The notes under the pieces: generated by a model
Told to the model about the DNA's origin: nothing
Databases searched by the model: none
Seen by the model: the letters and a program-made list of their open reading frames with translations, nothing else
Position numbers and translations under genes: made by a program
Origin: Nitratireductor sp. XY-223
GTDB lineage: Bacteria; Pseudomonadota; Alphaproteobacteria; Rhizobiales; Rhizobiaceae
DNA: 64,000 nt
Assembly: GCF_004959855.1 (NCBI RefSeq)
Contig: NZ_SPNT01000002.1
Coordinates: 124,001 to 188,000, forward strand
Direction: 5' to 3'
Shown: piece by piece, positions 16,895 through 28,516 of the stretch
Position numbering within the stretch: position 1 is the first letter of the stretch
Layout of the letters: each line of letters starts with the position of its first letter

Positions 16895-18232
16895 TCACTG
16901 CAGCATCAGGACGTCCGTCTTGGCGGTTCGGCCGCGCAGGCTGAGCGGGCCGTGCTTCTTCAGCCGCGCCAGCGCGATCTTCGTCTCCGTCGGGTTCTCC
17001 GCCATGGCCGCATCCACAAGGGCGACGCTGACGATGCAACGGCAGCCGATCTCCCGGTTCGCCTGCTCGAGCCGGCTTGCGACGTTGACGGTGTCGCCGA
17101 GGACCGCGAATTCCATGCGGCGGTCGTTGCCGATGTCGCCAAGCACGATCGGGCCGTAGTGGACGCCGATCGCCAGCTCCAGCTCGCCTGCCTCGCTTCC
17201 CGCGCGCGTCTGTTTCCAGCTCCTGAAGGCATCCGCCATCTCGACCGCGGCGGCCAGCGCGCTCACGGCATCATGGTCTGACGGTTCGGGCGTTCCGAAG
17301 GTCGCCATCAGGCCGTCGCCGATGAACTTGTCCAGCGTCCCGTCGTGCCGGAAGACGGTTTCGGCCAGCATTGCGTGGACCTCGCGCAGCACCCCTATCG
17401 TGTCGCGGGGCGAACGGTTCTCCGCCCATCCCGTGAAGGAAACGAGATCGGCGAACAGGACTGCGGCCTTATGCTCGCGCGGTTCCGACAACGGGTTGGT
17501 CTTCGTGGCGAGCAACTCGACGGTCTTGCGCGGGAAATAGCGCGACAGGTTGGTCTTCTCGCTGGCGAGGTCGGCCTGGCGCAGCGCAATGGCGCGGGCG
17601 CGGTTGACCGCAAGCGCCAGCAGCCCGGCCGTGATCAGCAGCGCCATGATTTCCTGGAGCCTGATGCCGAGGTCGACAAAATACGGGGACACCAGTGCGC
17701 CAAGAAGCTGATCGCCGCTTTCACCGGTGGGCGGCTGAATGACGGTTTCGGGCAGGCTGGCAAGCCAGCCGACGCCGATCGCCCAGCTTACCGCCGCCGA
17801 TACGCCGCCCCACAGGACCAGCATCGGCCGGTAGACATAGGCAAGGCCCGCCAGCAGCACGAAGAAGTAGATGAAGGTTCCGAAGCGCAGCGCGAATTGC
17901 GGGGGGAAATCGTAGGGTACCAGCGGATTCGGATAGAGCAGCGTGAATGTCAGCAGTGCAAAGTCCGCGGTCACGAAAGCGTAGCGGAGCCAGCCCCGGC
18001 GCCAGCGTGCCTCCGCCAGATAGGCGCCGAAGCCGAGCAACATGAACACAACGAGCAGCGGGTAGTAGAAAAGCGGCCCGGGCCACGGCGTCAACACCGA
18101 AATAAGCGCCGCGATCACCAGCAGCGCGACGACCCGCCCCGACAGCGCCGAACGCTGCGCCGCCAGCTCTTCGGCGGCGAAGGACATTTCGGCCGCTGAG
18201 TGACCCGTGTCGGGATTGCCTTGGTTCTTCAT
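16895..18232 (-). CDS. Membrane-bound class III adenylate cyclase
   Basis: 445 aa. An N-terminal integral-membrane sensor has about six hydrophobic segments between residues 30 and 210, with no long periplasmic domain. A short linker (RQADLASEKTNLSRYFPRKTVELLA) leads to the cyclase domain. Metal-binding Asp262 (VLFADLVSFTGWAE) and Asp306, and purine-selecting Lys302 (DKFIGDGLMATFG), are intact, as are GVHYGPIVLGDIG and VNVASRLEQ. Predicted to be catalytically active. Transcribed divergently from the GNAT gene over a 224 bp spacer. Confidence 0.92.
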   Translation of the reverse strand: MKNQGNPDTGHSAAEMSFAAEELAAQRSALSGRVVALLVIAALISVLTPWPGPLFYYPLLVVFMLLGFGAYLAEARWRRGWLRYAFVTADFALLTFTLLYPNPLVPYDFPPQFALRFGTFIYFFVLLAGLAYVYRPMLVLWGGVSAAVSWAIGVGWLASLPETVIQPPTGESGDQLLGALVSPYFVDLGIRLQEIMALLITAGLLALAVNRARAIALRQADLASEKTNLSRYFPRKTVELLATKTNPLSEPREHKAAVLFADLVSFTGWAENRSPRDTIGVLREVHAMLAETVFRHDGTLDKFIGDGLMATFGTPEPSDHDAVSALAAAVEMADAFRSWKQTRAGSEAGELELAIGVHYGPIVLGDIGNDRRMEFAVLGDTVNVASRLEQANREIGCRCIVSVALVDAAMAENPTETKIALARLKKHGPLSLRGRTAKTDVLMLQ

Positions 18233-18456: not shown

Positions 18457-19071
18457 ATGAAGAATAGTGCCGCGCAAGTCGCATATTTCATGAGACCCAT
18501 GGGATTGGACGATGTTCCGACCATTGCGCGCTGGTTCGAAAATTTCGAGGACATCGCCCTCTTCGACCGGAACCTGCCGGTGCCGATCGGCCCGGAGGCT
18601 GTGCGCGAAAGCTGGAGACCGGCGCTCGAATATTCCGATCCGCCGCGATCCCTGTGGTTCGTGGCCGAAGATGCGGACGGACATCCGGCGGGAATCGGCG
18701 GCCTGCAGGCGATCAACTACATTCACGGCGATGCCGTCCTGCCGATGTTCGTCGACCGTCCGGCGCGAACCAACGGCCTGGCGACCGGCATGACGATCAC
18801 CCTGCTCGACCTTGCTTTCGGGCAATTGCGCCTTCACCGGGTCTCGACCTTCTTCAGGGCCGACCATGACGCGACGGCCAATGTCGTCGGCAAGGCCGGT
18901 TTCCGCGAGGAAGGCCGCATCCGCCAGGCGTGGTTCGCCGGGGGGAAACACCACGATGTCGTCCAGGTGGGGATACTGCGCAGCGAATGGCTCGACGGAT
19001 GCGAGAGGCTGCGGACGGACCTGAAAACGAATTCGGGGGTTCAACTGAGGCTAGAGGGAACCGAAGCGTGA
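18457..19071 (+). CDS. GNAT family N-acetyltransferase (RimJ/RimL type)
   Basis: 204 aa. It begins MKNSAAQVAYFMRPMGLDDVPTIARWFEN, has the acetyl-CoA-binding region around PARTNGLATGMTITLLDLAF (a degenerate Q/RxxGxG/A loop) and the AT1-type core LRLHRVSTFFRADHDATANVVGKAGFREEGRIRQAW. Protein or small-molecule amine substrates are both possible. Only 13 bp separate it from the downstream cyclase gene, so they probably form an operon. Confidence 0.85.
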   Translation: MKNSAAQVAYFMRPMGLDDVPTIARWFENFEDIALFDRNLPVPIGPEAVRESWRPALEYSDPPRSLWFVAEDADGHPAGIGGLQAINYIHGDAVLPMFVDRPARTNGLATGMTITLLDLAFGQLRLHRVSTFFRADHDATANVVGKAGFREEGRIRQAWFAGGKHHDVVQVGILRSEWLDGCERLRTDLKTNSGVQLRLEGTEA

Positions 19072-19084
19072 CGGCGGACATGGC

Positions 19085-20860
19085 ATGATGGAACAAACCT
19101 CCAGCCGGTTGCGGCGGCGGCTTTCGGCGATCGTTTTCGCCGACATGGTCGGCTACAGCCGCATGATGGCGGTCGACGAGGTCGCCACCACGATGGCGGT
19201 CAAGTCCTGTATCGAGATGTTCACGGCGCTCGCCGCGGATTTCTCGGGCCAGGTCACGGGCACCAATGGCGACGGCGTCTTCCTGATTTTCGACAGCGCC
19301 GTCGACGCGGTTTCCTTCGCCGTGGAAATCCAGAACAGGATAAAGGCCCAGAACGAGGGCATCAGCGAAGACAAGCAGACACTGTTCCGCATCGGCATCA
19401 ATGTCGGCGAGATCATCATCGACGATGTCGACCTGCACGGCGACAGCATCAACATCGCCTCGCGGATCGAGGCCTTCGCGCAGCCCGGCAGAATCTGCAT
19501 TTCCGGCGCCGTGCACGACCAGGTCAGCAAGAAGCTCGCATTCGGTTACGAGTATCTCGGGGCCCAGGAATTCAAGAACATCAGCGAACTGGTCGATGTC
19601 TTCCAGGTGCACGAGGACCCGGCGGCTGCAACCCTGACCACCGGCCTGCGCCGGCCGGCGCGCGCATCGGAATACGACCGTGGCAGCGAGTCCAAGGACC
19701 AATCCATCGTCGTCCTTCCCTTCGGCTTCCAGGGGAACGATCCGAGCGAGAGCTGGTTCGCCGACGGACTTGCCGAGGACGTGACCACGAACCTGTCGCG
19801 CTTCCACGATTTTTTCGTCATCGCCCGCGGCTCCGCCTATGTCTACAACGACCGGACCATCGCGCCGAAGGAAGTCGCACGGGAACTGGGTGTGCGCTAC
19901 GTCGTCGACGGATCGGTGCGCAAGGCGGGTCCGCGAATCCGGGTGGCGCTGCAGCTGCTCGACGCGCAGCGCGACCGCACCATCTGGGGCGAGCAGTACA
20001 ACCGCGAGATCGACGACATTTTCGAGCTGCAGGACGAGATCACTCAGGTGATCGTCTCCGCCACCGCGGCGCAGATCGAGGCGTCGGAACTGGAGCGGTC
20101 GCGCCAGCAGCCGCCGACCAACTTAGCCGCCTATGGTTACGTGCTCCAGGGACAGGGCCACATATTCCGCTACACGAAGGACGATGTCCGCCGGGCGCGT
20201 GAGCTGTACGACAGCGCCCTGAAGATCGACCCGAGCTATGCCAGGGCGCTGGCGGCGAAATCAAGGACCCTGAATATCGACTGGCGCTATGACTGGGCGG
20301 AGCATCCGGACAGGGCCCTGGACGACGCGCTCAGCCTGGCGCGCAAGGCCGTGGAGTTCGACGGCACCGATGCCCGCGGCTTCGGCGAGCTCGGCTTCGC
20401 CCACCTCTACCGCAAGGAGCACGAGGCGGCGATCAGCGCCTATGAACGGGCGCTCCGGCTCAATCCCAATGATGCTGACCTGATGTCGGACATGGCCGAT
20501 GCGCTGGCCCATTGCGGCCGGTCCGAGGAAGCCATCGACATGCTTCAAAAAGCGATGCGGCTCAACCCGTTCTATCCTGACCAGTATATCTGGCACCTGG
20601 GCGGCGCCTATTTCAACCTGGAGCGCTACGAGGACGCCGTGCGCACCATCCAGACCATGCAAAACCCGACCGAGGGACGACGCCTGCTGGCCGCCAGCTA
20701 CGCCCATCTCGGCCGCGAGGCCGAGGCCCGCGCCGAAGCGCGGAAGGTGCTCGAGGCGCACCCCAATTTCAGCGTCGAAAGCTGGGCCGCGGTGCAGCCG
20801 GACAAATACGAGGAGGACGTCGCCCGTTTCGTCGAGGGTCTGAAGCGGGCCGGTCTCTAA
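19085..20860 (+). CDS. Class III cyclase domain - TolB-like domain - TPR protein
   Basis: 591 aa. The N-terminal cyclase homology domain (about 12-190) has metal Asp20 (IVFADMVGYSR), Asp63 and DSINIASRIEAF, but the purine-selecting Lys of the usual KTIGDG is replaced (GTNGDG, Gly59), so substrate choice or activity is in doubt. Residues about 195-335 are a FlgO/TolB-N-like domain (IVVLPFGFQGNDPSESWFADGLAEDV, VRYVVDGSVRKAGPRIRVALQLLD). From about 370 there are tandem TPR units (GFAHLYRKEHEAAISAYERALRLNPNDADL). This domain order is common in rhizobia; its physiological output is largely unknown. Confidence 0.88.
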   Translation: MMEQTSSRLRRRLSAIVFADMVGYSRMMAVDEVATTMAVKSCIEMFTALAADFSGQVTGTNGDGVFLIFDSAVDAVSFAVEIQNRIKAQNEGISEDKQTLFRIGINVGEIIIDDVDLHGDSINIASRIEAFAQPGRICISGAVHDQVSKKLAFGYEYLGAQEFKNISELVDVFQVHEDPAAATLTTGLRRPARASEYDRGSESKDQSIVVLPFGFQGNDPSESWFADGLAEDVTTNLSRFHDFFVIARGSAYVYNDRTIAPKEVARELGVRYVVDGSVRKAGPRIRVALQLLDAQRDRTIWGEQYNREIDDIFELQDEITQVIVSATAAQIEASELERSRQQPPTNLAAYGYVLQGQGHIFRYTKDDVRRARELYDSALKIDPSYARALAAKSRTLNIDWRYDWAEHPDRALDDALSLARKAVEFDGTDARGFGELGFAHLYRKEHEAAISAYERALRLNPNDADLMSDMADALAHCGRSEEAIDMLQKAMRLNPFYPDQYIWHLGGAYFNLERYEDAVRTIQTMQNPTEGRRLLAASYAHLGREAEARAEARKVLEAHPNFSVESWAAVQPDKYEEDVARFVEGLKRAGL

Positions 20861-20881: not shown

Positions 20882-21478
20882 TCAGTCGCCGGCGTCACCA
20901 CGGGCGCCGCTGATGCGAGCGCCGGACACACGGGCGCCCGAAACGCGCGCGCCCGAGACGCGGGCTCCGGAGACACGCGCCCCGGAAACACGGGCACCGG
21001 ACACGCGGGCGCCCGAAACGCCGGGACCGCCTTCGCCGATCGTCGACAGCAGCACTTCCTCGAAGGAGCCGGAATCGATGTCGAGCCGCATGGTGTCGTC
21101 GCCGCGGTCATAGGCCCATGCGCGCAAATCCTCGAAGAAATTCTTGTCGTCCTTGTCGGGTCCGGGAACCTTGATGGCCGACAGCGGCGCGCCCTCGCCG
21201 TGAACCAGGAACAGCACCGGCACACCGACCTCGAAATAGGCGCCTTCGTAGCTGAACCCGTAAATGCGGGCAAAGCGTGCAAGGCCACCGCCCGAACCGG
21301 CGGAAAAATCACCCCAATCCCTGCGGGTCAGCTGTTGCTGCAGTCCGGACGAGTTCCCCTTCGAGGTGGCCATGGACGGGCTATGCGCTTTGTTTCCCTT
21401 CGGCGTGACAATATTCAGGTCTTCAACGACACGTCCGAACAAAACAACATTCGATGCGCTTAACAGTGTTTCCGGCAT
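20882..21478 (-). CDS. Unknown protein with eight C-terminal VSGAR-type pentapeptides
   Basis: 198 aa, family not recognised. Residues 1-150 look like a soluble folded domain (FARIYGFSYEGAYFEVGVPVLFLVHGEGAPLSAIKVPG, then DKNFFEDLRAWAYDRGDDTMRLDIDSGSFEEVLLS). After a Gly-rich hinge (GEGGPG) come seven VSGAR units and one ISGAR, ending GDAGD. In the register A-R-V-S-G they resemble a pentapeptide-repeat beta-helix with Arg where Asp/Asn is usual. ATG 21478 has AGGGGAA upstream. It is the last gene after YcaO, TfuA and a metallopeptidase on the same strand, so it is a candidate substrate or partner of those enzymes (inference). Confidence 0.8.
   Translation of the reverse strand: MPETLLSASNVVLFGRVVEDLNIVTPKGNKAHSPSMATSKGNSSGLQQQLTRRDWGDFSAGSGGGLARFARIYGFSYEGAYFEVGVPVLFLVHGEGAPLSAIKVPGPDKDDKNFFEDLRAWAYDRGDDTMRLDIDSGSFEEVLLSTIGEGGPGVSGARVSGARVSGARVSGARVSGARVSGARVSGARISGARGDAGD
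20900..21019 (-). repeat. Eight tandem 15-bp units encoding [VI]SGAR
   Basis: One ISGAR unit (20900-20914) and seven VSGAR units (20915-21019). The units differ mainly at synonymous positions, for example the Gly, Ala and Arg third bases. Confidence 0.95.
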
Positions 21479-21574
21479 TGGCTTCCCCTAAACCTTGTGA
21501 CCGCTTGGTTATGTTCTATCGTTTTATTTGGTTTTTCTTATTTCATCCAAATATTATTAAACCACATGCGATTG

Positions 21575-22840
21575 TCAGTCCATAGGCGTCAGCGTGCGCA
21601 CGGAATTTGCATGACTATCCTTCTGCAGCGGGGCCAGCTGCGGCCCGACCCGGACCTTTCCGATATCGCGCATTTCGAAGTTGCCCCTGATCAAGGTGCG
21701 GAAACGCCCGCCCGTATGCTGCTTGTCGACCCTCTCGAACGCCCGCGCCACATCGACGAAATTCAGGTCGTTGCGGTCGAGCCGCTGCCAGGTGTCGGCA
21801 AGATAGGTGCCGAGTATGTCGCGGGCATCGATCAGCGCCATCTTGAAACCGTCCGGATTGGCCGCGAATGCACCGTCGAACAGCGTTTGCATAACCGGCT
21901 CATAATCGGGTGTGGCCAGAAGTTCGTCGGATAAATTCTCCACGTCCGGATCGATCGCGCCATAGTCGAGCAGGCACTCGTGGAACAGGTCGACAAGAAT
22001 ATCGAAGAAAGCGCCCGTCAGGGGCTGCGACAGCTTGTGCTCCTTGATCCAGCCGCGCGCGAACTCAGACAGCCGCACATCATTGGCTGCGATGCGGATC
22101 TGCGCGTTTTCCGACAGCTCCGCCATGCGGGTAATCGAATTCAGGCGGTAGAGATTGCCGCTGGTGTTGACGAGCAGCCGATCGATGAGCGAATTGAAAT
22201 GCAGCGACGAGATCAGAGCGACCAGGTCGGCAGCGCTTTCGTGGAAACCGTAATATTCGCCGGTCGCGCCGGACGGATCGGGAACGCCGACCTCGGAATA
22301 GATGATCGCGTGCCCAACCTCGTGGGCGATCACGTCGAAATTGAGACTGAACGGCTTGTAGCGACCGTGCTTGCGGTCACCGCCCATCTCCAGGAAGCCG
22401 TAGCCGGAATAAGCGTTTTCCAGTGACGGCAATATGGTGAGTTCGAGACGGTCGTAATGTTTGCGGCTGTGCCAGGGAATGGGTCGGTCGAAATAGCCCT
22501 CCCAGATATCCATTACGAAGCGCACCGTGCCGAACAGGTGCGCCGCCTCGAACTGCGGTGTGCCGGGTTCCAGATGGTCGAAATGGCCCTGTGCATCCGG
22601 CAATGCCGGATCATGGATGTCGCCGGTCCAGGGCGGCATCAGCGCATCGTCGCCCTGCTCCGGATCGGGACTGATGCCGTAGGGCGACGGCTTGCCGACC
22701 GGGAAGATCGTATACATGCGGTCATCGGCGGGCCCCGGCGAAAGCGAACCGGCCGGTGAGGAAACGTAGACGGTCTCGGGTTCCTCGAAATCGTCCAGAA
22801 ACCGCGGCTGCGGATAGAGTCTGAAGCGGGTCCCTTCCAT
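21575..22840 (-). CDS. Thermolysin-like (gluzincin) zinc metallopeptidase
   Basis: 421 aa. The zinc site is HEVGH (173-177, in FDVIAHEVGHAIIYSEVG) with the likely third ligand Glu201 in GFHESAADLVALI, a gluzincin arrangement. Upstream, HSRKHYDRLELTILPSLENAYSGYGFLEMG precedes the active-site helix as in M4-like enzymes. No signal peptide is visible, so it probably acts in the cytosol. ATG 22840 is chosen because AAGGA lies 6 nt upstream; a GTG at 22876 overlaps the tfuA stop and is the alternative. In an operon with YcaO and TfuA it could process a modified peptide or protein (inference). Confidence 0.82.
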   Translation of the reverse strand: MEGTRFRLYPQPRFLDDFEEPETVYVSSPAGSLSPGPADDRMYTIFPVGKPSPYGISPDPEQGDDALMPPWTGDIHDPALPDAQGHFDHLEPGTPQFEAAHLFGTVRFVMDIWEGYFDRPIPWHSRKHYDRLELTILPSLENAYSGYGFLEMGGDRKHGRYKPFSLNFDVIAHEVGHAIIYSEVGVPDPSGATGEYYGFHESAADLVALISSLHFNSLIDRLLVNTSGNLYRLNSITRMAELSENAQIRIAANDVRLSEFARGWIKEHKLSQPLTGAFFDILVDLFHECLLDYGAIDPDVENLSDELLATPDYEPVMQTLFDGAFAANPDGFKMALIDARDILGTYLADTWQRLDRNDLNFVDVARAFERVDKQHTGGRFRTLIRGNFEMRDIGKVRVGPQLAPLQKDSHANSVRTLTPMD

Positions 22841-22872
22841 TTCTGTCCTTCCCCTTCCAGGATCGGCCTTGT

Positions 22873-23676
22873 TCACTCGTCGCCGCCGACAATCCGGAAC
22901 AGCCGCTCCGGCTCAACGGGGCGACGGGAACCGTCACGCGCCCGTTCCGAAGGATCGCGGCGCGCGCGCCATTCCTCGACGCCCCGGCGCCATAATTCGG
23001 TGTGCTCGAAATGGAATCCGACCGGTCGGTCCGGCCAGGACCCCTTGTCTTCCAGGCACTGCAGCAGCGCCAGCGCGTCGCGCTTCTTCTGGTCGAAGTG
23101 GTTTTTGCGCATCCACGCGCCGCATTCGCGAGTGGCGGTATCGCAGTCGTTCCCGATGGCCTGCAGCAAGGCCTCCCAGGTCCGCGCCTTGAAATGGATG
23201 GCCTTCGCCACCCCCGCGAGCGACCGGCACTGGTCCGCGCTCGCCCGGCCCGTTCGCAGCGCTTCATCGAGGGTCGCGCGGATGTTGACCATGGCAAGCG
23301 TCAGCGGCGCGTAACCCGCATCCGCCGGGCCGTGCTGCAGGGCGACCTCATCATCGTCTTCCAGTTCGCCATCGCGATAGGCTTCATAGACGCGGCCGAT
23401 GCCGGTCATGCCGAAAGCATCGAGTTCGGCGGCGCGCAGCGCGCCCATGCTGGCGGCGCCGAAGACCGGTATGCCCTGCGTCAGTGCCCACAGGATTTCC
23501 TTGTGCCAGACGGACGGCACACCGTCGAAAACACCGTCGATGACGCCGATGGCGTCCGGCCGGTCCAGGCTCGCCCGGAAGAGATCGCCCTGCTTGACGG
23601 GCGGCCGGAACTCCATGCCGTCATAGCGTTCGAGTGGCTCTCCGTGGAGCGACGGGCCGGCGAACACGACGATCAC
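22873..23676 (-). CDS. TfuA-like protein
   Basis: 267 aa. The TfuA core is clear: MIVVFAGPSLHGEP, RPPVKQGDLFRA, DAIGVIDGVFDGVPSVWHKEIL and the signature IPVFGAASMGALRAAEL, then GIGRVYEAYRDGE. TfuA proteins partner YcaO enzymes in backbone thioamidation (McrA thioglycine in methanogens, thioamide RiPPs) and were named from trifolitoxin production in Rhizobium. The ATG overlaps the stop of the ycaO gene by 4 bp, indicating coupled translation and joint function. Confidence 0.92.
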   Translation of the reverse strand: MIVVFAGPSLHGEPLERYDGMEFRPPVKQGDLFRASLDRPDAIGVIDGVFDGVPSVWHKEILWALTQGIPVFGAASMGALRAAELDAFGMTGIGRVYEAYRDGELEDDDEVALQHGPADAGYAPLTLAMVNIRATLDEALRTGRASADQCRSLAGVAKAIHFKARTWEALLQAIGNDCDTATRECGAWMRKNHFDQKKRDALALLQCLEDKGSWPDRPVGFHFEHTELWRRGVEEWRARRDPSERARDGSRRPVEPERLFRIVGGDE

Positions 23677-24944
23677 GGCAACGCCTCCCCGGCATCGAGG
23701 CCCTGAAACGCGCGGTCGCCGGCGACATAGGTGACATCGTCATGGGGTGCCTCGAGACCCGGAATGATGATGCGCATGACGGGAATGCCGAATTCGGAGC
23801 GGCTGAGATCCACGGCAGCGACCTCATCGATCCCTGCTTTCCGCAATCCGTCCAGCAAGTCGGCCAGGTCGGCCTGCAATGTGTCGTTCTCGGCCGAAGG
23901 CGCGTCGGCGAACCTTCGGGCCCGGCCGTTTTCCGCGAGCATCCGGCCCACCGCACCGGCTTTCTCGCCGCGGCCGCGGGCTGTGAACTCGGACAGCATC
24001 AGGTCGTCGCGCGAGCCGCTGATGTAGTTCAGCCGCGTCTGGGCCGCCTCCGTCAGCGACCGGCGCAGCGCAACACCCTGGCTGAGATGGGTTCCCGATC
24101 CGATGCCGATATGCCCGGGCTCCGCCGCGCCATCCCGGATGACGCAAAGGAACGTCGCCACGCCGATATCGGTGGTGATGTCCCAGACCCCCATTTCAAG
24201 ACCCGCTGCCGCTATCTTCCCGATCGCCGCTTTGCAGTCGGGATCGTCGACGCTTTCGGGATCGACCCCGCGCCCTGCCTGCTGCTCAGGCGGCGCGTGG
24301 TGCCAGATCGAAAGCGCGTCGCGCTCGATCACCTCGCAAATGCCGTGGCAGATCGCTTCCAGCGGATGATTGCCGGAGGCAAGGCCGTTGGTGCTTGCCG
24401 GAAAGCAGCCGTGGCCGGGCTGGACCGGATGGGTGTAGTCGGCGTGGACCATTTCGAAAGGCACCAGCAAAGCGTCGCCGCTCATCAGATCGACGGCCTC
24501 GGCCCAAAGCATGCGCAAGGAGGCGTTAAAACGGCCGTCGGCGATGGCCGGCAGCCGCCCGACGTCGATCAGCCGGTGGGAACAGGCGAGTTCACGGGCA
24601 CTGGAAAAGCGCATGGGCCGGTCGTAGTGCTCGGCATGCCAGATTTCGACGGCTTCCATCAGGGCCGAGGCGCGGGCTTCCGAATCGCGCATGCCCTTGC
24701 CCTGCGAAACCGCAACGGACCGCGCATTGGGCCGTGTCGCCAGGAAGACTGGCAGGCCGATCCGGTCCAGGCCTGTGACATTGGCGATGCGGGTGATGCC
24801 GAACCGGTGCTTCTGCGGCAATATGCGCGCCAGTGTGTCTTCCGCCGCGCAAACCCTCTGCAGCCCGCGCGAGCAGTCTTTCAGTCCGGGATCTGCAGAC
24901 AAAATGTCCACCGGGTCGCTGCTTTCCCTCAACACCTGAAACAT
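23673..24944 (-). CDS. YcaO-like cyclodehydratase/thioamidase
   Basis: 423 aa. ATP-binding YcaO motifs are GKGMRDSEARASALMEAVEIW (about 82-102) and ICEVIERDALSIWHH (about 202-216), with TNGLASGNHPLEA between. It activates peptide backbone amides with ATP to form azolines or, with TfuA, thioamides. There is no fused E1-like or Ocin-ThiF-like domain, so leader-peptide recognition must come from elsewhere. The C terminus (QGLDAGEALP) is not the proline-rich type of azoline synthetases, which also favours thioamidation. First gene of a four-gene operon, divergent from aspT across 246 bp. Confidence 0.93.
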   Translation of the reverse strand: MFQVLRESSDPVDILSADPGLKDCSRGLQRVCAAEDTLARILPQKHRFGITRIANVTGLDRIGLPVFLATRPNARSVAVSQGKGMRDSEARASALMEAVEIWHAEHYDRPMRFSSARELACSHRLIDVGRLPAIADGRFNASLRMLWAEAVDLMSGDALLVPFEMVHADYTHPVQPGHGCFPASTNGLASGNHPLEAICHGICEVIERDALSIWHHAPPEQQAGRGVDPESVDDPDCKAAIGKIAAAGLEMGVWDITTDIGVATFLCVIRDGAAEPGHIGIGSGTHLSQGVALRRSLTEAAQTRLNYISGSRDDLMLSEFTARGRGEKAGAVGRMLAENGRARRFADAPSAENDTLQADLADLLDGLRKAGIDEVAAVDLSRSEFGIPVMRIIIPGLEAPHDDVTYVAGDRAFQGLDAGEALP

Positions 24945-25190: not shown

Positions 25191-26903
25191 ATGATTGAAA
25201 TGCTCGACCGGCTGTTCGATGCAGCGCCCCTTTTGGCGCTGTTCATCACCATTTCCCTCGGCTATGTGGTCGGCAAACTGAAAATCGGACAGTTCGTTCT
25301 CGGCGGCATTGCCGGATCGCTGATCGTCGGGGTGATCATCGGCCAGCTGGGAATCCATCTGGACACGGCGATGAAGTCGGTCTTCTTCGCGCTTTTCATC
25401 TACGCGGTCGGCTATCAGGGCGGACCGCAATTCTTCCGGTCGCTCAACCGGCGGTCGCTGAACCAGCTCGTATCCGCCTTCGTCATGTGTCTCGTCGGCC
25501 TGATCTGCGTGCTTGTCAGCGCCTGGACATTCGACCTCGACCGGGGCACCGCTGCCGGTCTTGCGGCGGGCGGACTGACGCAATCGGCGATCATCGGAAC
25601 GGCGGGCGACGCCATCGCCAAGCTCGGCGTCTCGGCGGAGCAGATCAAGATCATGCAGACCAATGTCGCCGTCGGCTACGCGGTCTGCTACATCTTCGGC
25701 AATCTCGGCCCGATCATCGTGGTGACGTGGTTCCTGCCCATGGTGATGGGTTGGGACGTGCGCAAGGAAGCAGTCAAGCTCGCCCGGGAACTGTCCGGCG
25801 GCAAGGCCGAACTGGAACCCGGCCAGTTCAATGCCATACGCCAGGTCAACACCCGCCTTTACGAAGTATCGGCCGACAGCAGGGCGGCCGGCAAGACCGC
25901 CCTTGCCATCGACCAGGACCTTTCGGACGCCGCGGTCGAATCCGTTTTGCGCAACGGCGAGGAACTAGCCGTCAACGACGACACCGTGGTGCAGGCGGGC
26001 GATCAAATCGCCGTCACCGGTGTGGTTACGGTCATGAAGGGCGTGTCGGACTATTTCGGCCCCGAACGCACCGCGCCCGACCAGTATCAACTGGTCGAGG
26101 AGCAGCGCGAGGTCATCGTCACCAAGCCGCAGTTCATCGGCAAGACGATCGGCGAAATGCACGACGAACTCAGCGTGCAGACGCGGCACGGCGTCTATCT
26201 CGTCGCCGCCCGGCGCATGGGCCGCGACCTGCCGAACCTGCACGGTCTCGAACTGCACAAGGGAGACGAACTGCTGTTCACCGGCGCGCCCAAGGATCTG
26301 GACAGGGTGCAAGGCCTGATCGGCTACAAGATCACCGCCGCGGCGGTGACCGATTTCGTGTTCTTCGGCATCGGCATGGCGCTCGGCATTCTCGTCGGCA
26401 TGATCGAGTTCCGGGTTGCCGGCATTCCGGTGACCATCGGAACCGGCGGCGGCTGCCTGCTGTCGGGGCTGTTGTTCGGATGGCTGCGCAGCACGCATCC
26501 GCAGTTCGCGGCGCTGCCCACCGGCGCGTCCAACTTCCTGAGGGATTTCGGCCTCGCGGTCTTTGTCGCCATCGTCGGCATCTCGGCCGGGCCGCAGGCG
26601 GTGACCACGATGCAGCAATACGGCCTGACGCTGTTTTTCCTCGGCGTCGGTGTCACCATCATCCCGCAGATTGTGGTTTTCTATTTCTCCTACTACGTGC
26701 TGCGCATCCGCAACCCGATCGAGGCGCTGGCCTGCGTCGTCGGCGGCCGCAGCGCCAATCCCGGCTTTGCCGCGTTGCTGGCCAAGGCCGGCAATGCGAC
26801 GCCGGTGGTCACGTTCACGGTCACCTATGCGGTCGCCAATGTCTTCCTGACGATCTGGGGTCCCCTGATTGTCGGGATCATCGCCAAGAACCCTTCGCCC
26901 TAA
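25191..26903 (+). CDS. aspT: AspT-type aspartate:alanine antiporter
   Basis: 570 aa, AAE transporter family. Two blocks of about five membrane helices (residues 10-190 and 385-565) flank a hydrophilic middle with a TrkA-C/RCK_C-like section (TRLYEVSADSRAAGKT ... DDTVVQAGDQIAVTG). Repeat signatures AVGYQGGPQFFRSL and GISAGPQAV are typical. It exchanges aspartate in for alanine out, an electrogenic step. ATG 25191 follows GGAG at 6-7 nt. The frame is open upstream for 500 codons across the minus-strand ycaO, but that is a shadow. aspD follows after 17 bp. Confidence 0.92.
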   Translation: MIEMLDRLFDAAPLLALFITISLGYVVGKLKIGQFVLGGIAGSLIVGVIIGQLGIHLDTAMKSVFFALFIYAVGYQGGPQFFRSLNRRSLNQLVSAFVMCLVGLICVLVSAWTFDLDRGTAAGLAAGGLTQSAIIGTAGDAIAKLGVSAEQIKIMQTNVAVGYAVCYIFGNLGPIIVVTWFLPMVMGWDVRKEAVKLARELSGGKAELEPGQFNAIRQVNTRLYEVSADSRAAGKTALAIDQDLSDAAVESVLRNGEELAVNDDTVVQAGDQIAVTGVVTVMKGVSDYFGPERTAPDQYQLVEEQREVIVTKPQFIGKTIGEMHDELSVQTRHGVYLVAARRMGRDLPNLHGLELHKGDELLFTGAPKDLDRVQGLIGYKITAAAVTDFVFFGIGMALGILVGMIEFRVAGIPVTIGTGGGCLLSGLLFGWLRSTHPQFAALPTGASNFLRDFGLAVFVAIVGISAGPQAVTTMQQYGLTLFFLGVGVTIIPQIVVFYFSYYVLRIRNPIEALACVVGGRSANPGFAALLAKAGNATPVVTFTVTYAVANVFLTIWGPLIVGIIAKNPSP

Positions 26904-26920
26904 CTTGAGATGAGGTCATC

Positions 26921-28516
26921 ATGCAGGACCAGGATTTCAGCGAATTCGCCGATCTCAGCCCCTTCGAACTGAAGGACAAGCTGATTGCCGTCGCCAGGAC
27001 CGAGTCGCAGAAGGTGATGCTCAACGCCGGGCGCGGCAATCCGAATTTCCTGGCAACCCAGCCGCGCCGGGCCTTCCTCAGGCTCGGCGAGTTCGCGGTT
27101 CTCGAGGCGGAACGCTCCTATTCCTATCTCAACAGCGGCTTCGGCGGCCTTCCGGAAAAGGACGGCATGATCGAGCGGTTCGAATCCTTTGCCGGCCGGT
27201 TCCCCGACGATCCGGGCGTTACTTTCCTGCGCGCCTCGATCTCTTTCGTGCGCGACCAGCTGGAACTGCAACGCGAGGACTTCATCTTCGAAATGGTCCA
27301 GGCCTTCCTCGGCTGCGTCTACCCGGTGCCGCCGCGCATGCTCGAGCATGCCGAGGAAATCGTCGGTGCCTATATCGGCCAGGAAATGTTCGGCAATGTT
27401 CCGAAGTCCGGCGACTATTCGCTTTTCGCCACCGAAGGCGGCACCGCCGCGATGACCTATATTTTCCAGACGCTGAAGAACAACGGCCTGATTGCCCCTG
27501 GCGACAAGGTGGCGCTGGGCACGCCCATCTTCTCGCCCTACCTGGAAATTCCGCCGCTGCCCGAATACGCGATGGACATCGTCGATATCCGCATGGACGA
27601 GGACAATGACTGGCAGTTCCCGAAGGAAGAGATTGCCAAGCTCGAGGATCCGGCGATCAAGGTGTTCTGCCTCGTCAATCCGAGCAACCCGCCCTCCTAC
27701 AAGCTGTCGGACGCCTGCCTCAAGCAGCTCTCGGACCTGATCAACACCAAGCGCCGCGACCTGATCGTCGTGACCGACGATGTTTACGGCACCTTCGCGG
27801 ACGACTTCGTGTCGCTGTTCGCCACCTGTCCGCACAACACGCTTTGCGTCTATTCCTTCTCGAAATATTTCGGCGCCACCGGCTGGCGGCTCGGCGTCAT
27901 CGCGCTGCATGAGGACAACGTGCTCGACGAGGCCCTCGCCGGCCTGCCCGCCTCCGTCAAGAAGAAGCTCGATCAGCGCTATTCCTCGCTGACCACGGAC
28001 GTTGCGGGGCTGCGCTTCATCGACCGGCTGGTCGCCGACAGCCGCGCCGTGGCGCTCAACCACACGGCGGGTCTTTCCACGCCCCAGCAATTGCAGATGA
28101 CACTGCTGGCGCTCAACGGGCTGATGGACCTTGACGGCAGCTACAAGGCGGCGGCCAAACACCTGATCCGACACCGGTACCGCACGCTCTGCCAGGAGAT
28201 GGGCATCGAGCCGCGCATCGGCCCGAACGGTGTCAACTACTACACGCTGATCGACCTGCAGCAGCTTGGCGCACAGCTCTATGGAAAACAGTTCGCCAAA
28301 TGGTTCGCCTCGGGCGAGCGCGGCACCGATTTCCTGTTCCGGCTGGCGCGCGAGACCGGCGTCGTGTTGTTGCCCGGCAAGGGTTTCGAGGTGGTCGATT
28401 CATCGGCGCGCGTCTCGCTCGCCAACCTGACCGAGGCCGAATATGCCGAAATCGGCGCCTTCACCCGGCGAGTGCTCGACGAGCTCCACCAGGAGTTCAC
28501 GTCGGGCAAGAAGTAG
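26921..28516 (+). CDS. aspD: Bifunctional aspartate aminotransferase / aspartate 4-decarboxylase
   Basis: 531 aa, the usual AspD length and longer than plain class I aminotransferases. PLP lysine is Lys315 (VYSFSKYFGATGWRLG); LVNPSNPPSYK and VVTDDVYGTFADDF line the pocket. It converts aspartate to alanine and CO2 with proton consumption, plus some transamination. Together with AspT this is the known aspartate decarboxylation cycle that builds proton-motive force and consumes acid. It converges on the TPR gene with 3 bp between them. Confidence 0.95.
   Translation: MQDQDFSEFADLSPFELKDKLIAVARTESQKVMLNAGRGNPNFLATQPRRAFLRLGEFAVLEAERSYSYLNSGFGGLPEKDGMIERFESFAGRFPDDPGVTFLRASISFVRDQLELQREDFIFEMVQAFLGCVYPVPPRMLEHAEEIVGAYIGQEMFGNVPKSGDYSLFATEGGTAAMTYIFQTLKNNGLIAPGDKVALGTPIFSPYLEIPPLPEYAMDIVDIRMDEDNDWQFPKEEIAKLEDPAIKVFCLVNPSNPPSYKLSDACLKQLSDLINTKRRDLIVVTDDVYGTFADDFVSLFATCPHNTLCVYSFSKYFGATGWRLGVIALHEDNVLDEALAGLPASVKKKLDQRYSSLTTDVAGLRFIDRLVADSRAVALNHTAGLSTPQQLQMTLLALNGLMDLDGSYKAAAKHLIRHRYRTLCQEMGIEPRIGPNGVNYYTLIDLQQLGAQLYGKQFAKWFASGERGTDFLFRLARETGVVLLPGKGFEVVDSSARVSLANLTEAEYAEIGAFTRRVLDELHQEFTSGKK

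Follow-up and report, generated by a model that had tools for sequence, protein, structure and literature searches.

The minus strand of a 64,000-nucleotide stretch of Nitratireductor sp. XY-223 (contig NZ_SPNT01000002.1, positions 124,001 to 188,000; hereafter, the window) carries an operon encoding a YcaO enzyme, a TfuA protein, a thermolysin-fold peptidase, and a protein whose tail consists of eight VSGAR-type units. The gene set is real and conserved, and its repeat is under selection. We propose, with a probability of about 60%, that the repeat-tailed protein is the precursor of a ribosomally synthesized and post-translationally modified peptide (RiPP), in which a folded leader is followed by many cores that are thioamidated by YcaO-TfuA and cut by the peptidase. 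A first-pass annotation of this DNA had listed the four open reading frames (ORFs), all of which were found where it placed them; its assignments of YcaO and TfuA were borne out by Pfam matches, and its count of eight tail units was confirmed (Table 1). The conserved block extends past the region that it described, and takes in a nucleotide cyclase gene that it had missed and a GNAT gene; the presence of the cyclase qualifies the earlier idea.

Co-occurrence of the gene families was assessed in (i) a sample of the order (297 genomes), (ii) a sample of the family (394 genomes), and (iii) a scan of named genomes, in which the peptidase served as bait and the best 80 of 327 stretches encoding a relative were taken, leaving out more distant members; the two genome samples are free of this limit. 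In the order sample, the peptidase was present in 18 genomes and TfuA in 44, all 18 lying within the 44, and the peptidase adjoined TfuA at 19 of 19 places (Fisher P 3.4e-17, uncorrected for relatedness). In the family sample, 54 peptidase places were found, of which two were treated as remote homologues and excluded (G465, E 2e-12; the second of G501, 2.4e-11), and TfuA lay within ~3 kb at 50 of the 52 clear places; adjacency counts for both samples were read from tables by eye. The exceptions were G382, whose match lies at a contig end of a fragmented genome, and G333, and a search for YcaO found it in neither genome.

The order YcaO-TfuA-peptidase was seen in all 18 loci that were fetched, with the repeat protein behind the peptidase in 16 (11 by homology, four by position and alignment, and one by profile); the contigs of the other two stop just past the peptidase. 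Among the 80 named loci, which carry the same four genes in the same order, each of YcaO, TfuA, and the repeat protein was detected in all but one (79 of 80); a contig end (L146, L124) or a YcaO-TfuA fusion (L165) explains each miss. Where at least 2.7 kb of upstream sequence was present, YcaO was found in 76 of 76 loci and TfuA in 75, the 76th being the fusion. The named relatives span Hoeflea poritis (91% identity) to Roseibium, Labrenzia, Roseobacter, Ruegeria, Leisingera, Roseovarius, Aurantimonas, and Mesorhizobium. Homologues of YcaO, TfuA, the peptidase, and the repeat protein were confirmed by profile on plasmid pRL11 of Rhizobium johnstonii 3841, where the latter two are annotated only as hypothetical proteins. 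The first-pass annotation had proposed this comparison and would have abandoned its idea had the families failed to co-occur in relatives; they recur together. No description of this gene set was found in the titles, abstracts, and passages of open-access articles to which the search was confined.

The N-terminal domain of the repeat protein is conserved, with G15 and W121 invariant among 55 sequences. It has no solved sequence relative (best PDB E 0.9) and no fold match (best E 2.2), and Pfam matches across the 55 members are mostly to pentapeptide families, which in the window protein fall on the tail, with a few other families matched in one or two members each. The AlphaFold2 model gives the domain a mixed alpha/beta structure that is partly confident, the predicted local distance difference test (pLDDT) score being below 50 at residues 29-42 and 56-64; the tail is modelled as disordered and free of strands, with pLDDT < 50 over residues 150-189. 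A search with the repeat protein matched 41 genomes at E <= 0.001, 11 of them at E < 1e-15, most of the others matching the tail region alone.

The eight 15-mers that encode the tail of the window protein all differ in DNA. The fraction of codon differences between them is 0.664, compared with 0.691 (standard deviation 0.054) for independent draws from local codon usage, and the top two scores among the four rows of a tandem-repeat scan of the window belong to this array; the repetition exceeds what chance would give. Within the arrays of 80 proteins with five-residue units in at least four copies, synonymous differences (pS) reached 0.796 and nonsynonymous differences (pN) 0.053, for a pN/pS of 0.067; these proteins are related, so the values describe a pattern and are not a test on independent samples. 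As the codons are saturated while the protein units are kept, the units are held by selection rather than by copying, and repeat slippage as the source of their identity is ruled out by the same saturation. A 15-bp minisatellite unrelated to the system, which reads VSGRR in one frame and comprises 54 identical units (L015, genome G226, 1075-1991), served as a control.

Among the tails of 98 distinct proteins, 15 exact unit types were recognized (ten pentapeptides, four hexapeptides, and one heptapeptide), in arrays of 4 to 16 units. Twelve of the 98 have no exact repeat and stand outside these counts: L146 is truncated, L123 has imperfect units, L033 and L034 have imperfect heptads, and L165, L094, L097-L100, L217, and L218 are non-repeated; a masked stretch splits the L172 gene in two, and a single piece was counted. 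Of these types, 14 contain Gly and as many contain Arg or Lys, 12 contain Ser or Thr, none contains Cys, and by our reading 13 contain a bulky hydrophobic residue. The unit type switches wholesale between lineages and the N-terminal domain stays, which is the pattern of a leader and its core. Gly as a universal unit residue was discarded on account of the unit AMMQSR (L212), so the modified residue cannot be Gly everywhere. The protein with this unit, from a genome of the same genus (G454; L212 6581-7558), is a diverged repeat protein of ~16 AMMQSR units, at a locus with a large cyclase-type gene upstream of YcaO.

The first-pass annotation had seen no short precursor gene nearby. In agreement with it, a comparison of 2388 ORFs of 20-120 amino acids (aa) from the window and 78 of the 80 named loci (79 in all) found none that matched in more than two loci with peptidases less than 80% identical, and no small ORF of the window matched in any locus with a peptidase below that identity. 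The ORFs were taken from the stretch that begins 2 kb upstream of YcaO and ends 1.5 kb past the repeat protein, excluding the six genes themselves, with an E cut of 1e-4 and a low-complexity filter, and on this comparison, which is weak below ~35 aa, a separate small precursor was rejected. Apart from the enzymes, nothing but the repeat protein was found conserved, and judged by sequence it is the best substrate candidate.

The window YcaO scored 240.8 bits against TIGR03266 (McrA-glycine thioamidation, methan_mark_1; cut-off 365) and 132.5 bits against the TOMM SagD profile (cut-off 219.25), placing it outside both memberships, and its best PDB match was MJ1094 (6pe3, 2.6e-39), with TruD at 4e-22. 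TfuA scored 200.5 bits against NF033432, also below the cut-off (235.2), and matched PDB 6xp8 at 1.5e-34. The window YcaO therefore resembles the thioamide-forming branch more closely than the azoline formers. Thioglycine in McrA of Methanosarcina acetivorans requires both YcaO and TfuA (PMC5589413), and since TfuA is a near-constant partner of YcaO at our loci, thioamidation is favoured. As with the methanogen pair, whose profiles are the best matches among NCBIfam, the ycaO stop and tfuA start overlap (PMC5589413), in the window by 4 nt (GTGA). Unlike the methanogen system, both proteins score below the equivalog cut-offs, and their partners are a repeat-tailed protein and a peptidase.

The TfuA of the window is 267 aa long (22873-23676), and many relatives carry a C-terminal extension of ~170-180 aa (e.g., L086 6032-7345, L089 5194-6540, L092 6844-8187), in which no Pfam family was matched in the two scanned, L086 and L092. 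At L165 (1173-4004), YcaO and TfuA are fused in one frame of ~943 aa, and the downstream protein has a non-repeated tail. A second YcaO of 458 aa is encoded in the Nitratireductor genome itself (L002 1399-2775, contig C55) without a TfuA partner, the one TfuA match of the genome being that of the window.

The peptidase, which the first-pass annotation had called a gluzincin, matched the M4 profile PF01447 weakly (E 0.032; 15.1 bits, gathering score 22.4). Its AlphaFold2 model (pLDDT 86, predicted template-modelling score 0.89) was matched by Foldseek to M36/M4 proteases, with thermolysin 4tln at E 3e-7 and probability 1.00. Invariant among 32 sequences are N142, A143, HExGH (H173, E174, H177), E201, and H268, which by motif we take to be the Asn-Ala edge strand of thermolysin, its HExxH, its third ligand, and its His231. 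The predicted model thus has the structural features of M4 (thermolysin fold, HExxH, Glu ligand, and second His), and by profile score and modelled fold the protein is a distant relative of M4 rather than a listed member. GTG 22876 is an alternative start; ATG 22840 agrees with several relatives that begin with MxGTRF, and as the window peptidase starts directly with this conserved block, a cytosolic enzyme is favoured.

A cyclase/TPR profile match was found no more than 5 kb past the peptidase in 62 of the 66 loci with enough flank, convergent with the operon in 57 and co-directional in 5, and 55 of the 66 have a GNAT gene. Five of the 18 fetched loci, all distant (L093-L096, L099), have a different cyclase-type (cyclase/AAA) protein of 1000-1200 aa directly upstream of YcaO, an arrangement also found on pRL11 of R. 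johnstonii 3841, and on p42c-type plasmids the cyclase lies upstream of the peptidase. As each of these three arrangements carries a cyclase, a functional link rather than chance is suggested. The two large proteins that were scanned (L093 and L095) matched TIGR03903, a TOMM kinase/cyclase fusion, at 426 and 345 bits, the matches covering positions 273-1259 and 281-1267 of its 1267. They differ from it in scoring below the cut-off (705.75) and in leaving the first 270 profile positions, presumably the kinase, unmatched, and the window cyclase is of a shorter TPR type. Going by its name, we take TIGR03903 to be part of YcaO-peptide systems.

Table 1. Features of the YcaO-TfuA operon and its neighbouring partners in the window (window coordinates)
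Feature	Coordinates	Strand	Basis or remark
YcaO enzyme, 423 aa	23673..24944	-	First gene of the operon; PF02624 1.6e-81
TfuA, 267 aa	22873..23676	-	GTG start; PF07812 1.9e-47
Thermolysin-fold zinc peptidase, 421 aa	21575..22840	-	AlphaFold2 model and Foldseek; conserved residues
Repeat-tailed protein, 198 aa, proposed precursor	20882..21478	-	N-terminal domain outside known families, and tandem tail
Tail array, 7 x VSGAR + 1 x ISGAR, residues 154-193, proposed repeated core	20900..21019	-	
Nucleotide cyclase with TPR repeats	19085..20860	+	Convergent with the operon; PF00211 1.6e-10 and TPR
GNAT N-acetyltransferase, frequent partner	18457..19071	+	PF13302 2.1e-12

Two further features adjoin the block. 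Just past the GNAT gene lies a second cyclase-domain protein (16895-18232), with cyclase-profile matches in the same place in the near relatives L102, L210, and L211. Divergent from the operon, at 25323-28516, an aspartate-alanine antiporter stands beside an aspartate 4-decarboxylase (TIGR03802, NF006755), which we take to be a proton-motive pair; the antiporter is the only transporter among the nine window genes scanned.

From this arrangement we infer the following route, including which protein is modified and how, where it is cut, in which compartment this happens, and what the cyclase and GNAT proteins do. The precursor would consist of a leader domain of ~145 residues, partly folded in the model, and a disordered core of near-identical short units. 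YcaO and TfuA would recognize the leader and place thioamides in the tail backbone at positions that recur, in the simplest case once in every unit, on Gly or on the residue preceding Arg/Lys. The thermolysin-like peptidase, probably in the cytosol, would then cut at the units. Thermolysin prefers a bulky residue in P1', and a cut before Val would release VSGAR-type pentapeptides with one thioamide each. GNAT may N-acetylate the released peptide, and the linked cyclase probably couples the system to cyclic AMP or cyclic GMP.

Known systems offer parallels to several of these steps. Thiovarsolins derive from a repeated APR core of VarA that is modified by YcaO-TfuA, and the pathway of Streptomyces varsoviensis (VarA/VarY/VarT) shares with ours a YcaO-TfuA pair and a precursor with several short Arg-containing cores (PMC6511847). 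Its authors note no specific protease in that cluster (PMC6511847), whereas a thermolysin-fold peptidase is adjacent here. The thiovarsolin pathway also differs in that a leader domain of ~145 residues and a nucleotide cyclase are present here. In azoline formers a long folded leader can be bound by YcaO through protein-protein contact, as is the case for the nitrile-hydratase-like leader peptides of MprE/MprC (PMC12455567); the chemistry there yields azolines and the leader is helical, with 81 residues (PMC12455567), unlike the mixed alpha/beta leader modelled here. The survey of TfuA clusters by Malit et al. (2021) counts more than 500 in Rhizobium (PMC8120280), which probably include members of the rhizobial subtype of our system, and the words 'metallopeptidase', 'pentapeptide', 'repeat', and 'adenylate cyclase' are absent from its main text. 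With adjacent ycaO and tfuA genes in the window, and a repeat protein that has the conserved leader and variable core of a precursor as a pattern in its sequence, the system would be placed among the TfuA-associated thioamide RiPP systems, although its putative precursor is larger than is usual for RiPPs.

A number of observations weigh against our proposal. Two p42c-type Rhizobium plasmids and G333 encode the cyclase, peptidase, and repeat protein without a neighbouring YcaO-TfuA, as does a third plasmid of the p42c-type arrangement, from R. acidisoli FH23. In G333 (88% complete), YcaO and TfuA were both absent from a genome-wide search, so the peptidase and repeat protein can apparently persist as a pair without modification. 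Seven peptidase places have one stop inside the match (G183 and G247 in the order sample; G392, G455, G545, G589, and G627 in the family sample). Among the tails, the unit AMMQSR has no Gly, L165 has no repeat, and the most distant members end in a single non-repeated stretch resembling LPGKRSP...HRxGRL. The leader domain matches no known fold, and the nine window genes scanned yielded no match to a sulfur carrier (ThiS/ThiF) or an exporter.

The loci that lack the modifying pair fall together in the tree. In a midpoint-rooted tree of 50 peptidases, built without L096 and L086 (identical to L175), the two p42c-type plasmids and G333 form one clade (support 100/100) nested among YcaO-bearing rows, making a single loss the simplest account if the midpoint root holds. 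The tails of these three (RSSGG, and LSRSGG with imperfect heptads) are comparatively short and irregular. R. acidisoli FH23 carries its p42c-type locus on one plasmid (pRapFH23d) and a YcaO-TfuA pair, with small ORFs of its own beside it, on another (pRapFH23c), and modification may occur in trans there. The loci of this set are L033 (6027-10349), L034, L209, and L221; L033 and L034 also have an additional small gene downstream.

Of the alternatives, it is unlikely, though worth weighing, that the tail is thioamidated and never released, the protein acting intact and modified, as McrA or uL16 does, and the peptidase trimming, activating, or destroying it as the cyclase dictates. McrA (PMC5589413) and uL16 (PMC13063428) are known cases of intact proteins that are thioamidated, and both the lack of an exporter match in the nine scanned genes and the peptidase start that speaks for a cytosolic enzyme would suit such a protein; the wholesale change of units between lineages, however, seems unlike the fixed site of McrA or uL16. 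We regard as rather improbable a second alternative, that YcaO-TfuA modifies something else, such as the peptidase, and that the repeat protein is a partner, inhibitor, or adaptor of the peptidase with its tail as bait. Such a role would agree with the persistence of cyclase, peptidase, and repeat protein without the pair, in one clade of three tree rows and a further plasmid; against it, the nesting of that clade makes loss simpler, subject to the rooting, and where YcaO is present, as in most loci, purifying selection on the tail units is strong.

There is little to recommend the formation of oxazolines on tail Ser by YcaO in place of thioamides. Most unit types do offer Ser or Thr, but none of Ser, Thr, and Cys occurs in MNARG, ANARG, or GGGKV, YcaO is paired with TfuA at almost all loci and scores nearer to the McrA type, and the nine window genes that were scanned gave no match to a cyclodehydratase partner or a dehydrogenase; these three types, together with the SagD score, also argue against membership of the SagD-type cyclodehydratases. 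With Gly in 14 of 15 types, Ser/Thr absent from three, and no Cys, backbone thioamidation fits better than azoline formation. Equally improbable is a tail that serves as a structural pentapeptide-repeat beta-helix and not as a substrate: 31 of 55 members match Pfam Pentapeptide PF00805 at E <= 0.1 (best 1.8e-7), which must be set against our proposal, but the window protein falls under the gathering score (17.3 vs 20.2 bits), the tail is modelled without strands at low confidence, and the varying array size and the six- and seven-residue units of some relatives break with a five-residue period.

Beyond the precursor proposal itself, we offer, tentatively, that the block forms an intracellular circuit of alphaproteobacteria coupled to the cyclase, in which one precursor would yield several thioamidated pentapeptides that act in the cell, linking modification and proteolysis to cyclic-nucleotide signalling, while each lineage would have re-invented the word of the tail. 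If the precursor proposal is true, the substrates of YcaO-TfuA would gain a class built from a large leader domain and a long series of near-identical cores, thioamide peptides would have a protease encoded next to them, and their genes would show a conserved linkage to those of nucleotide cyclases. Marine roseobacters (Roseobacter, Ruegeria, Leisingera, Roseovarius) and rhizobia both carry the block, which points to a widespread, uncharacterised route to small modified peptides.

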